Positions 8,886 to 11,611 of a stretch of DNA of 30,315 bases are shown here, in pieces (position 1 is the first letter of the stretch; each line of letters begins with the position of its first letter). The notes under the pieces were generated by a model. It did no database searches. It was given only the letters and a program-made list of their open reading frames with translations, and was not told the origin of the DNA. Where the stretch lies: the NCBI GenBank assembly GCA_021852225.1, contig JAJZOA010000081.1:1-30315 (forward strand), in the 5' to 3' direction. This DNA comes from Planctomycetota bacterium (GTDB taxonomy: Bacteria; Planctomycetota; Phycisphaerae; WQYP01). The position numbers and the translations under genes were made by a program.

Positions 8886-10097
8886 TCAACTTGCCCCAGT
8901 TGCCAGCCCCGGCATGACCGGTATCGCCGCCCGGCTTTCCGCCGGGTTGTACCGTTCACCGAGGCTGTAATGCACCGGAACTCCGTCCTTGGTATGCAGC
9001 AAATAATAGCCGCCGCGGTCCACGAGTTCTTCATAAGGTCCAAGCACGCACTTACCCATGGGCGTCGGAATAGTGAGCAGGGGCACACGTGTGCCGGGCG
9101 CGGAAGCTAAAGCGCGCAATATAAATTGGCTTTCCGGCAATGTCAGCCGATGCTGGGGCAGAGTGCCATCAGGGAACGGATGAATAAGATAGTACGGTTT
9201 GACGGTTACCCGCCCGCTGTCCAACCGATCATACATATCGGTAATAATGGCAGCATCGTTGTTAATCCCGCGAAACAGCGGATGCTGTGTCATCATGAGA
9301 GGTGGACGCGCCGGTGTCAGCCGGACAAGAATATCCAAGACTTCAAGCAGCACAGGCGTTACTTCTCGCGGATGCACGACATGCAGAATATAGGAATTCG
9401 GGGCAAGGTCGGCAATGGCCTTTTGCAGTGCGGTGTTGCGCATCAGCCGGTTCGGATACCAGACCGGCTCCCGCGTGTGAATACAAACAGTAATGCGTCT
9501 GGATACACGCTGATTCAGCCGTTTGACGCGGTGGGCCAGATGGGTAAGCACGCCAGCACCCACTGCCAGCGGGTCACCGCCGCTTAGGATAATTTCACGC
9601 AGCTCGGCCAGCCGGGGTGATGTTTCCGCCTGGTCAAACATGGCGTCAATTTCGGCATGGGTAATGGTGCCCGGCGTCACATCGCGATTCTTCAGATAGC
9701 AGTAGCGGCACAGCCCACTGCAAAAGTCGGTGACGCGCAACAGGCTTTCGTATCGGTATTTTTGAATCCATCGCGGATGGTCTACGACTTTTTCGGCAAG
9801 TTGAAACGAATCCCAGCGTTCAGTGCCTGTGTCATACAATTCGCCGCTGTTTGGCAGCACCAGATCCCACAGCGGATCGTCCGGCAGATTGGTGAGAATA
9901 TTTTCCACATAAAACCGCGGCAGACGGAAGGTGAATGTGCGGGCAACCTCTTCCATTTCAGCCAAGCGCGAGGCGCTGATACCGGGCAATGCGGCCGACA
10001 ATGCGGCGACCGAGGTCAACAGGTCCGGGTTGTCATTGGAAGGATGATGCTGTGCGATTTCCACAATATCAAGCGATTTATTCTGTAAGACAGTCAT
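8886..10097 (-). CDS. KamA-family radical SAM aminomutase (lysine 2,3-aminomutase-like)
   Basis: 403 residues. The radical SAM cluster motif CxxxCxxC is seen as CSGLCRYC (Cys126, 130, 133), followed by the SAM-binding ILSGGDPL and the family pattern HTREPVWYPNRL. A Gly-Lys in PTPMGK (Lys349) sits where family members bind pyridoxal phosphate. The length fits lysine 2,3-aminomutases (about 410) better than the EF-P modifying EpmB (about 340). No epmA or efp gene is nearby, so the substrate is open: free lysine, another amino acid, or EF-P lysine. ATG at 10097 has GGAG about 9 bases upstream. A perfect TATAAT on the minus strand (10123-10118) would give a 5' leader of only about 14 bases. The gene is divergent from the aroF leader. 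Confidence 0.85.
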   Translation of the reverse strand: MTVLQNKSLDIVEIAQHHPSNDNPDLLTSVAALSAALPGISASRLAEMEEVARTFTFRLPRFYVENILTNLPDDPLWDLVLPNSGELYDTGTERWDSFQLAEKVVDHPRWIQKYRYESLLRVTDFCSGLCRYCYLKNRDVTPGTITHAEIDAMFDQAETSPRLAELREIILSGGDPLAVGAGVLTHLAHRVKRLNQRVSRRITVCIHTREPVWYPNRLMRNTALQKAIADLAPNSYILHVVHPREVTPVLLEVLDILVRLTPARPPLMMTQHPLFRGINNDAAIITDMYDRLDSGRVTVKPYYLIHPFPDGTLPQHRLTLPESQFILRALASAPGTRVPLLTIPTPMGKCVLGPYEELVDRGGYYLLHTKDGVPVHYSLGERYNPAESRAAIPVMPGLATGAS

Positions 10098-10190: not shown

Positions 10191-10219
10191 TTGACTTTTC
10201 GTCCATTTTCAGACATAGT
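10191..10219 (+). promoter_or_regulatory. Sigma70-like promoter of the aroF leader
   Basis: TTGACT (10191-10196), a 17-base spacer, then CATAGT (10214-10219). The -35 box matches consensus at 5 of 6 positions and the -10 box at 4 of 6. The expected start of transcription is near 10226, at or next to the ATG of the leader peptide (10227), which would make that ORF leaderless. Confidence 0.5.
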
Positions 10220-10226
10220 CCAAATT

Positions 10227-10322
10227 ATGAATACAGCGCCATACGATTTCATTCAAATGTCCGGCCCGGACTTCTGGTTTGGCGGCATGTATTTTACCAC
10301 CGGCTGGCGTCGGCGGACTTGA
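10227..10322 (+). CDS. Aromatic-rich leader peptide of aroF (31 residues)
   Basis: ATG at 10227 and TGA at 10320-10322. Eight of the 31 residues are aromatic: Tyr6, Phe8, Phe16, Trp17, Phe18, Tyr22, Phe23 and Trp27. Seven of these are clustered as DFWFGGMYFTTGW and the nearby upstream YDF. This composition is expected of a ribosome-stalling leader that senses charged tRNA-Phe, tRNA-Tyr and tRNA-Trp. It is followed by overlapping antiterminator and terminator stems, and then by the gene for DAHP synthase. No Shine-Dalgarno sequence precedes it. With the predicted transcription start at about 10226 it may be translated as a leaderless message. The peptide itself probably has no function beyond its translation. 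Confidence is limited because short ORFs arise by chance, but composition, position and RNA folding agree. Confidence 0.65.
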   Translation: MNTAPYDFIQMSGPDFWFGGMYFTTGWRRRT

Positions 10323-10364
10323 GATTGTTATCCAGAGTTTCTTTATCATCCTCAAGCCCGCCGA
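10310..10364 (+). promoter_or_regulatory. Predicted antiterminator helix of the aroF attenuator
   Basis: TCGGCGGACTTGAG (10310-10323) can pair with CTCAAGCCCGCCGA (10351-10364) in 13 of 14 positions, the only mismatch being A10317 opposite C10357. The left arm covers the last three sense codons and the stop of the leader peptide. The right arm contains the whole 5' arm of the terminator, so the two structures exclude each other. A ribosome that reaches the stop codon would cover the left arm and let the terminator form. One stalled at Phe16-Trp17-Phe18 or Tyr22-Phe23 would leave it free. Confidence 0.65.
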
Positions 10365-10385
10365 AAGACGGGCTTTATTTGTTTT
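10354..10385 (+). terminator. Rho-independent terminator (attenuator) before aroF
   Basis: AAGCCCG (10354-10360) pairs perfectly with CGGGCTT (10369-10375) around an 8-base loop, followed by the T-rich run TTTATTTGTTTT. It lies about 200 bases before the aroF start and after the leader peptide, not after any other gene. It must therefore end a short transcript or be bypassed conditionally. Confidence 0.8.
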
Positions 10386-10401: not shown

Positions 10402-10530
10402 ATGCAATCGACTATCGCCATGTATATCCAGCAAAGCTTGCAGTTGGCGGACGACGCCCTGCGGCTGGCGCATCAGATAGAACAACAGATCGACCCCATT
10501 CGGCCCCGGGAGAGACTTTGGCGATTCTGA
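10402..10530 (+). CDS. Possible 42-residue small protein between attenuator and aroF
   Basis: ATG at 10402 has AGGA exactly 7 bases upstream, and the ORF ends in TGA at 10530, 58 bases before aroF. The product would be one largely amphipathic helix (LADDALRLAHQIEQQI) with a basic tail (RPRERLWRF). I recognise no family. If real, it would only be made after readthrough of the attenuator, together with aroF. It could equally be non-coding spacer, so confidence is low. Confidence 0.3.
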   Translation: MQSTIAMYIQQSLQLADDALRLAHQIEQQIDPIRPRERLWRF

Positions 10531-10588: not shown

Positions 10589-11611
10589 ATGATTATTGTA
10601 ATGGAACAGGGTGCGACAGACGGACAGGTGCAGCATGTCGTGGATCTGGTGCGGGAAATGGGTCTCCGTGAACATGTCATTGTCGGCACGGAACGGACCG
10701 TAGTCGCCGTGCTCGGAGACGACCGTGCCAAGGACAAAGACAAACTGGAAAACGCCGGTGGTGTGGAAAAGGTCATGCCGGTTCTGGCACCCTATAAAAT
10801 GGCCTCACGTGAAGTAAAAAAAGAACGTTCGGTTGTGCCGCTGGGCGGTCGGCTCGGTGGAACGGCCGGTGGAAAAAAACTGGCGCTAATCGCTGGTCCC
10901 TGTTCCGTGGAAGACCGTGTGAAACTGCTGGAAATTGCACACATGGTGAAAGATGCGGGCGCCACCGGCCTGCGGGGTGGTGCATTCAAACCGCGTACCA
11001 GCCCGTACGCCTTTCAGGGTATGGGAGAAAAAGGTCTGGAAATTTTGGCCGAAGCCCGCGAACAGACCGGTCTGGCGGTGGTAACTGAAATCATGTCCAT
11101 AGATCAGGTGGAACTGGTCTGCCGATATGCGGACGTGCTGCAGGTTGGCGCAAGAAACATGCAAAACTTCAATCTGCTATGGGCGGTCGGCGAACAGCGC
11201 AAACCGGTGTTGCTGAAACGCGGCATTGCGGCCACGCTGGAGGAATTCATGCTGGCGGCGGAATACATCATGTCCCGCGGAAACAGCCAGGTTATTTTAT
11301 GCGAACGGGGCATTCGCACATTCGAAACGCATTGCCGCAATACGCTTCCTCTGGCCACCGTGCCGGAGGTTCATCGCATCAGCCACCTGCCGATTCTGGT
11401 CGATCCATCCCAGGGAACCGGACACGCACATCTGGTGCCGGATATGTGCAAGGCGGCGATCGCCTGCGGGGCGGACGGCCTTATTATTGAATGCCACAAC
11501 GACCCTGAACACGCGCTTACAGATGGCGCTCAATCCATTACACCCGCCACATTAAAGGCAATGTATGGCACGCTGAAAAAGCTGGCCGCCGCGGTAGACC
11601 GCGAAATTTAA
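10589..11611 (+). CDS. aroF: 3-deoxy-7-phosphoheptulonate (DAHP) synthase, type I-beta
   Basis: 340 residues. The enzyme condenses phosphoenolpyruvate and erythrose 4-phosphate, the first step of the shikimate pathway to Phe, Tyr, Trp and chorismate products. Residues 1-70 form a ferredoxin-like/ACT-like regulatory domain (MIIVMEQGATDGQVQHVVDL), as in the Thermotoga-type enzyme, where it mediates feedback inhibition. The barrel follows with AGPCSVE near residue 101, GGAFKPRTSPYAFQG, QVGARNMQNFNLL, PVLLKRG, ILCERGIRTFE and DPSQGTGHAHLVP. These carry the metal and substrate ligands. The start has AGGAAG 7 bases upstream. Regulation appears to be by the attenuator in its 360-base leader. No other shikimate gene is adjacent. 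Confidence 0.95.
   Translation: MIIVMEQGATDGQVQHVVDLVREMGLREHVIVGTERTVVAVLGDDRAKDKDKLENAGGVEKVMPVLAPYKMASREVKKERSVVPLGGRLGGTAGGKKLALIAGPCSVEDRVKLLEIAHMVKDAGATGLRGGAFKPRTSPYAFQGMGEKGLEILAEAREQTGLAVVTEIMSIDQVELVCRYADVLQVGARNMQNFNLLWAVGEQRKPVLLKRGIAATLEEFMLAAEYIMSRGNSQVILCERGIRTFETHCRNTLPLATVPEVHRISHLPILVDPSQGTGHAHLVPDMCKAAIACGADGLIIECHNDPEHALTDGAQSITPATLKAMYGTLKKLAAAVDREI

Follow-up and report, generated by a model that had tools for sequence, protein, structure and literature searches.

The DAHP synthase gene aroF in the 30,315-nt stretch of planctomycete DNA analysed here (the window) is very likely controlled by a ribosome-mediated transcription attenuator, and there is a high probability that this attenuator is real and works as a sequence-only reading of the same DNA had proposed. 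Together with its RNA switch, the leader peptide ORF very probably senses a shortage of aromatic amino acids. The elements of the locus are as follows:

10191..10219, plus strand: promoter-like site of the sigma-70 type, TTGACT-17-CATAGT, with the −10 element ending 7 nt 5′ of the leader ATG
10227..10322, plus strand: leader peptide ORF of 31 codons plus TGA, with the aromatic cluster FWFGGMYF and orthologous leaders in relatives
10272..10295, plus strand: predicted inducing stall sites, Phe16 to Phe23, from ribosome-occupancy folding in a minimum-energy model only
10310..10323, plus strand: antiterminator left arm, over the leader stop codon, forming 13 of 14 pairs with 10351–10364 (shuffle test, p = 0.002)
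10351..10364, plus strand: antiterminator right arm, overlapping the 5′ arm of the terminator (pairing, folding and shuffle test)
10354..10385, plus strand: intrinsic terminator with stem 10354–10360/10369–10375 and a T-rich tail (terminator scan and folding)
10402..10530, plus strand: ORF2, 42 residues, one predicted helix and a C-terminal RLWRF (present in 23 of 26 loci of the order; dN < dS)
10589..11611, plus strand: aroF, 340 aa, DAHP synthase with a ferredoxin-like domain, the putative regulated gene (NCBIfam and Pfam)

Inspection of the window bore out the anatomy that had been claimed. The promoter could be read directly at 10191–10219, the 31-codon ORF with eight aromatic residues and the terminator hairpin with a T-rich tail behind it were both present, and the rival helix formed 13 of its 14 pairs with its left arm across the stop codon. 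Translation of the leader would run from the ATG at 10227 to the TGA at 10320–10322 and yield the peptide MNTAPYDFIQMSGPDFWFGGMYFTTGWRRRT, in which eight of 31 residues are aromatic (four Phe, two Trp and two Tyr). The codons for Phe16, Trp17 and Phe18 occupy positions 10272–10280, and those for Tyr22 and Phe23 positions 10290–10295. The terminator stem (predicted energy −11.1 kcal/mol) is followed by TATTTGTTTT, and the arms of the alternative helix, TCGGCGGACTTGAG and CTCAAGCCCGCCGA, are interrupted by a single A–C mismatch. The aroF product belongs to the NCBIfam families TIGR01361 and NF006421 and to the Pfam families PF00793 and PF18152. Because both neighbouring long ORFs, upstream and downstream, lie on the opposite strand, the leader, ORF2 and aroF form an isolated unit, and since the gene at 8886–10097 is divergent, a plus-strand terminator cannot belong to it. 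This minus-strand gene is a 403-aa ORF, which we take to resemble a radical-SAM lysine 2,3-aminomutase. A minus-strand promoter-like site is also present within the leader (10252–10224).

Three features by which an attenuator is recognized are found together: a short ORF with codons for the products of the pathway precedes a biosynthetic gene, an intrinsic terminator separates this ORF from aroF, and, in the folding model of the window, an antiterminator excludes the terminator and is placed so that a terminating ribosome would mask it. In the proposed mechanism, a leaderless transcript would start at or beside the leader ATG, and a ribosome would translate the aromatic peptide while RNA polymerase copies the leader. 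When charged aromatic tRNA is scarce, the ribosome would stall within Phe16–Phe23 and leave the stop-codon stretch unoccupied, which could then pair with the 5′ arm of the terminator. Formation of this antiterminator would allow read-through into ORF2 and aroF; termination at the T-rich tail would be the alternative outcome.

We modelled these states by placing the ribosome edge 12 nt past the A-site codon and computing minimum-energy structures at equilibrium. In the window, the antiterminator was the minimum-energy structure for ribosomes stalled from Phe16 to Phe23, and the terminator was the minimum-energy structure for ribosomes at Trp27 or at the stop codon, with a modelled switch point between Phe23 and Trp27. 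The outcome was unchanged when the ribosome edge was set to 10 or 14 nt. The earlier proposal that stalling at the aromatic codons frees the antiterminator, and that completed translation hides it, therefore holds in the model for Phe16–Phe23 and for the stop codon, but it does not extend to Trp27, which adjoins the left arm and where a stall leaves the terminator in place and would not induce.

The five closest loci that we found all came from planctomycete metagenome-assembled genomes, with DAHP synthase identities of 82–92%. Among 28 genomes of the nearest relative's order, 25 had an ortholog with at least 77% identity, which together with the window gave 26 distinct loci. In 25 of them, a terminator stood behind an aromatic leader ORF, some leaders and long-loop terminators having been set by eye; the sole exception, L041, had no leader. 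L042, L043, L045, L046 and the more distant L011 escaped the initial automatic search for terminators, either through its loop limit or because another ORF had been picked, and were likewise set by eye. The T-tract is poor in L003 and L004. In a class-wide search, 165 of 298 genomes had a strong DAHP synthase match, from which six loci (L052–L057) and 60 upstreams taken by rank yielded 63 regions that were long enough and not duplicates. In 16 class loci, which make up a second group, the leaders are F[GS]FWFxGYFYP-like and the arms are of the CTCAGGAC/GTCCTGAG type. The arm sequences of this group are unrelated to those of the order and its layout is unchanged; here too the left arm is found at the stop codon, its first nucleotide lying 8 to 18 nt ahead of the ORF's end. 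Leaders of other types were found at L084 and L086, and most class loci outside both groups, among the 63 regions looked at, had no recognisable leader. Four upstreams (L006, L007, L093 and L094) contain longer ORFs with a YRYWRRG/YAYWRRW-like Tyr/Trp motif before the stop and no terminator clear to the eye, possibly reflecting another type of control. At L064 and L073, a short GGRCxFxF ORF comes after a small ORF that has a Trp close to its end, an order of elements opposite to that of the window.

These loci provided a curated set of 43 leaders (24 from the order, 16 from the second group, L084, L086 and L011), from which L047 was excluded, its leader being identical to that of L033. Phe, Tyr and Trp occur together in 41 of the 43, with Tyr absent from L003 and Trp from L042, in agreement with the suggestion that the codons are mixed, unlike those of trpL or pheL. 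Comparison of homologues, which the sequence-only reading had put forward as a check, thus showed that the aromatic ORF, the terminator and the position of the rival helix are kept in relatives. No family for the leader or for ORF2 was found in NCBIfam or Pfam, and Rfam gave no match at the gathering threshold in five loci (L138, L149, L160, L052 and L027).

A mere coincidence of promoter, ORF and hairpin has to be weighed against this conservation. The window promoter matches the consensus at just 9 of 12 positions, which is weak on its own, and two terminator-like sites were observed with 0.8 expected. To score leader ORFs, we counted aromatics per 10 residues in ORFs within 450 nt upstream and compared the result with shuffled upstreams. 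The window leader has a maximum of five aromatics in 10, a score met by 5.0% of shuffles and therefore not very rare for the window alone; two of six paralogue upstreams tested also reached it. Across loci, however, ORFs with at least six aromatics in 10 were present in 15 of 26 loci of the order, compared with 1.2% in 520 shuffles; for the other class loci the figures were 17 of 63 and, in 1260 shuffles, 0.4%. Lowering the threshold to five in 10 gave 18 of 26 versus 5.0% and 18 of 63 versus 2.7%, respectively. Automatic counts reached no more than three to four aromatics in 10 in L005, L038–L042 (for L042, on another ORF) and L045, and the leader start of L043 falls slightly beyond the 450-nt search span. 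Furthermore, no leader-terminator unit was seen by eye in seven upstreams of the order's more distant DAHP synthase paralogues. Chance is thus an extremely improbable explanation, and on these sequence comparisons it is conservation among relatives, not the window alone, that carries weight against it.

For the antiterminator itself, the energy found in the window was not equalled when the left region was dinucleotide-shuffled 500 times (p = 0.002). Applied to the curated set, dinucleotide shuffling of a fixed region around the stop codon gave p < 0.05 in 15 of 24 loci of the order, 12 of 16 of the second group and one of the three others. In the second-group terminator, 97.2% of cells were paired and two pairs showed two-sided changes; its pairing and its covariation score were each reached by 0 of 500 shuffles, its number of two-sided pairs by 402 of 500. 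The second-group antiterminator was 93.0% paired, and none of its pairs had changed on both sides. For the 11 sequences of the window's subgroup, the share of paired antiterminator cells is 76.8%, which is not above shuffles, as against 29–44% in slid versions. A check for compensatory changes in both stems had been proposed; such changes were found for the second-group terminator, whereas none came to light for the antiterminator inside any one group. Given this absence of column-wise covariation, the evidence for the antiterminator lies in unrelated arms at an equivalent place across groups.

In the folding model, with a ribosome at the stop codon, 42 of the 43 leaders formed the terminator, the exception being L003, and both states were modelled in 29 (18 of 24 in the order, 10 of 16 in the second group and one of three others). 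In many of the 14 loci without a modelled switch, the terminator wins at equilibrium under every state. During co-transcriptional folding, an antiterminator can form first. Untranslated window RNA folds as the antiterminator, whereas 35 of the 43 untranslated leaders fold as the terminator (16 of 24, 16 of 16 and three of three, respectively), so that the default-off state varies among relatives.

The close spacing of promoter and start codon is also shared. In 40 of the 43 leaders, a promoter-like −10 element ends 3–12 nt (mode 6) before the start codon, using lax criteria (TTGAC, a spacer of 16–18 and A at the second −10 position); as a background, TTGAC occurs in 80 of 1362 46-nt windows tiled across all upstreams, true promoters counted in. 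The exceptions are L061, L086 and L011, the last of which has AAGGAG ahead of its start. Since the −10 element of the window ends 7 nt before the ATG, its predicted transcript begins at or beside the start codon, and the leader is probably translated from a leaderless transcript.

The leader ORF could instead encode a functional small protein, with the terminator marking an unrelated transcription boundary. Indeed, comparison of 30 leader pairs gave dN values lower than dS. However, the peptides of different groups have little in common outside the aromatic cluster, the RNA arms overlap the peptide ends, and upstream there is no plus-strand gene for the terminator to end, which makes this explanation very unlikely compared with attenuation.

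The attenuator belongs to a known kind, of which it would be a mixed-codon and probably leaderless variant. Its logic of stall, antiterminator and terminator is common to trpL and pheL of E. coli. Those leaders respond to a single amino acid and have a ribosome-binding site ahead of the leader, and trpL has a protecting 1:2 hairpin; the untranslated window RNA differs from trpL in folding as the antiterminator. Membership in the Rfam family RF00513 (Trp_leader) was considered and rejected: the match to 10274–10381, although full-length, is weak (15 bits, E 5.1) and far under the 41-bit cutoff. The leader upstream of a DAHP synthase gene in Corynebacterium, which the sequence-only reading had mentioned, is aroR of C. 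glutamicum. According to the available text of the two reports (PMC11802643, PMC4046766), this aromatic-codon leader precedes aroF, and ribosome stalling on it raises transcription; Phe but not Tyr limitation is effective. It comes from an actinobacterium and contains Phe-Tyr-Phe, with no Trp reported in the motif in those portions, whereas the window mixes Phe, Tyr and Trp. The uORFC-13-1 motif of Acholeplasma, for which attenuation with Phe as signal was proposed, similarly places a uORF with one or more Phe codons immediately before an apparent intrinsic terminator and aroF, but it has a ribosome binding site and, in the part of the report available, is given only from Acholeplasma and environmental sequences (PMC8632094). 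Eight leader peptides on leaderless transcripts are described in Streptomyces lividans (leu, trp, ala, ilv, met and thr), none of them at a DAHP synthase gene in the text available (PMC8079986). Attenuation of Shewanella aroF is listed in one source, which cites older E. coli work for it (PMC2659441). The accessible text of another covers actinobacterial trp, cys, ilv and leu leaders, with no aro leader seen among them (PMC1262725), and a further one states, in its available portion, that leader peptides had previously been shown only in Proteobacteria and Actinobacteria, to which it adds Firmicutes (PMC2965389). A mixed Phe/Tyr/Trp leader at a DAHP synthase gene was not reported in the literature searched, most subscription journals lying outside it. 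Nor did this literature describe a planctomycete leader-peptide attenuator, at DAHP synthase or otherwise, in line with the earlier statement that none was known.

The aroR case raises the question of whether a single amino acid, either Phe or Trp, is the main signal for the attenuator, with the other aromatic codons hardly mattering. We consider this possible but the less probable reading: Tyr availability is reportedly without effect on the C. glutamicum operon despite the Phe-Tyr-Phe of AroR (PMC11802643), and Phe is the most frequent aromatic in most of the 43 leaders, yet Trp and Tyr are both retained in 41 of these otherwise diverged peptides. In addition, Trp17 and Tyr22 of the window are at positions where a stall yields the antiterminator in the model. 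On this basis, we infer that Phe, Tyr and Trp are all sensed.

Between the terminator and aroF, 23 of the 26 loci of the order contain ORF2 (35–52 residues), of which the earlier note made no mention. It is missing from L035, L037 and L041; L035 and L037 retain the leader and terminator, and no copy of ORF2 turned up at another place in their genomes (G021 and G022). Most copies have a purine-rich, ribosome-binding-like sequence ahead of them, the near-terminal Trp is invariant in the 22 distinct sequences aligned, and dN was below dS in 10 of 10 pairs compared, which are not independent. The predicted structure is a single helix (residues 2–33) with a low-confidence tail. A protein search with ORF2 returned 13 clusters, the window's own included, and in the 28 genomes there were 22 strong matches, all at aroF, and six weak ones elsewhere (E 0.017–0.036). 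Near its end, the conserved Glu is encoded by GAG in 15 of 15 sequences and the Leu preceding the Trp by CTT in 15 of 15, whereas codon choice is variable at further conserved Leu and Glu positions, with six codons in use for the invariant Leu of alignment column 27; in window genes, CTT accounts for 165 of 799 Leu codons. The end of ORF2 thus looks constrained at the nucleotide level, with no p-value claimed for the codon constancy because the sequences are related. A regulon sharing the 3′-end motif of ORF2 was not supported (in 28 genomes, the motif had 68 matches and its reversed control 69), and no consistent result came from looking by eye for base pairs that the end of ORF2 might form with the terminator loop or with the ribosome binding site of aroF. 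Tentatively, the aroF transcript might carry two regulatory layers, the pan-aromatic attenuator and ORF2, the latter being a lineage-restricted helical microprotein that would act on DAHP synthase or its translation; a Trp-dependent arrest peptide would be one such role.

Similar leaders occur well outside the planctomycetes. L011, a deltaproteobacterial match in the first scan, has the leader NRWFGYFYFYG and a terminator. In its class, 128 of 155 genomes had a strong DAHP synthase match, and we examined the best 30 of these loci, including L011's own (L118), which is therefore counted twice, once in the 43 leaders and once here. In 29 of the 30 (L118 and L137–L164), a GCCATGG/CCATGGC-type terminator lies behind an aromatic leader; L136 lacks this arrangement. 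Many of these leaders end in a VCPxLRRT-like sequence, the left arm sits on the Val-Cys-Pro codons, and 28 of the 29 antiterminators reached p < 0.05. Rfam gave no match in three of these loci that were checked. From these 29 of 30 loci it would seem that attenuation governs DAHP synthase far more often than the small number of published cases implies. Within the planctomycete class, the two groups show that the arms can diverge while the switch logic persists, and the leader peptide probably acts as an OR-gate for three tRNAs, placed at the committed step that all three products share.
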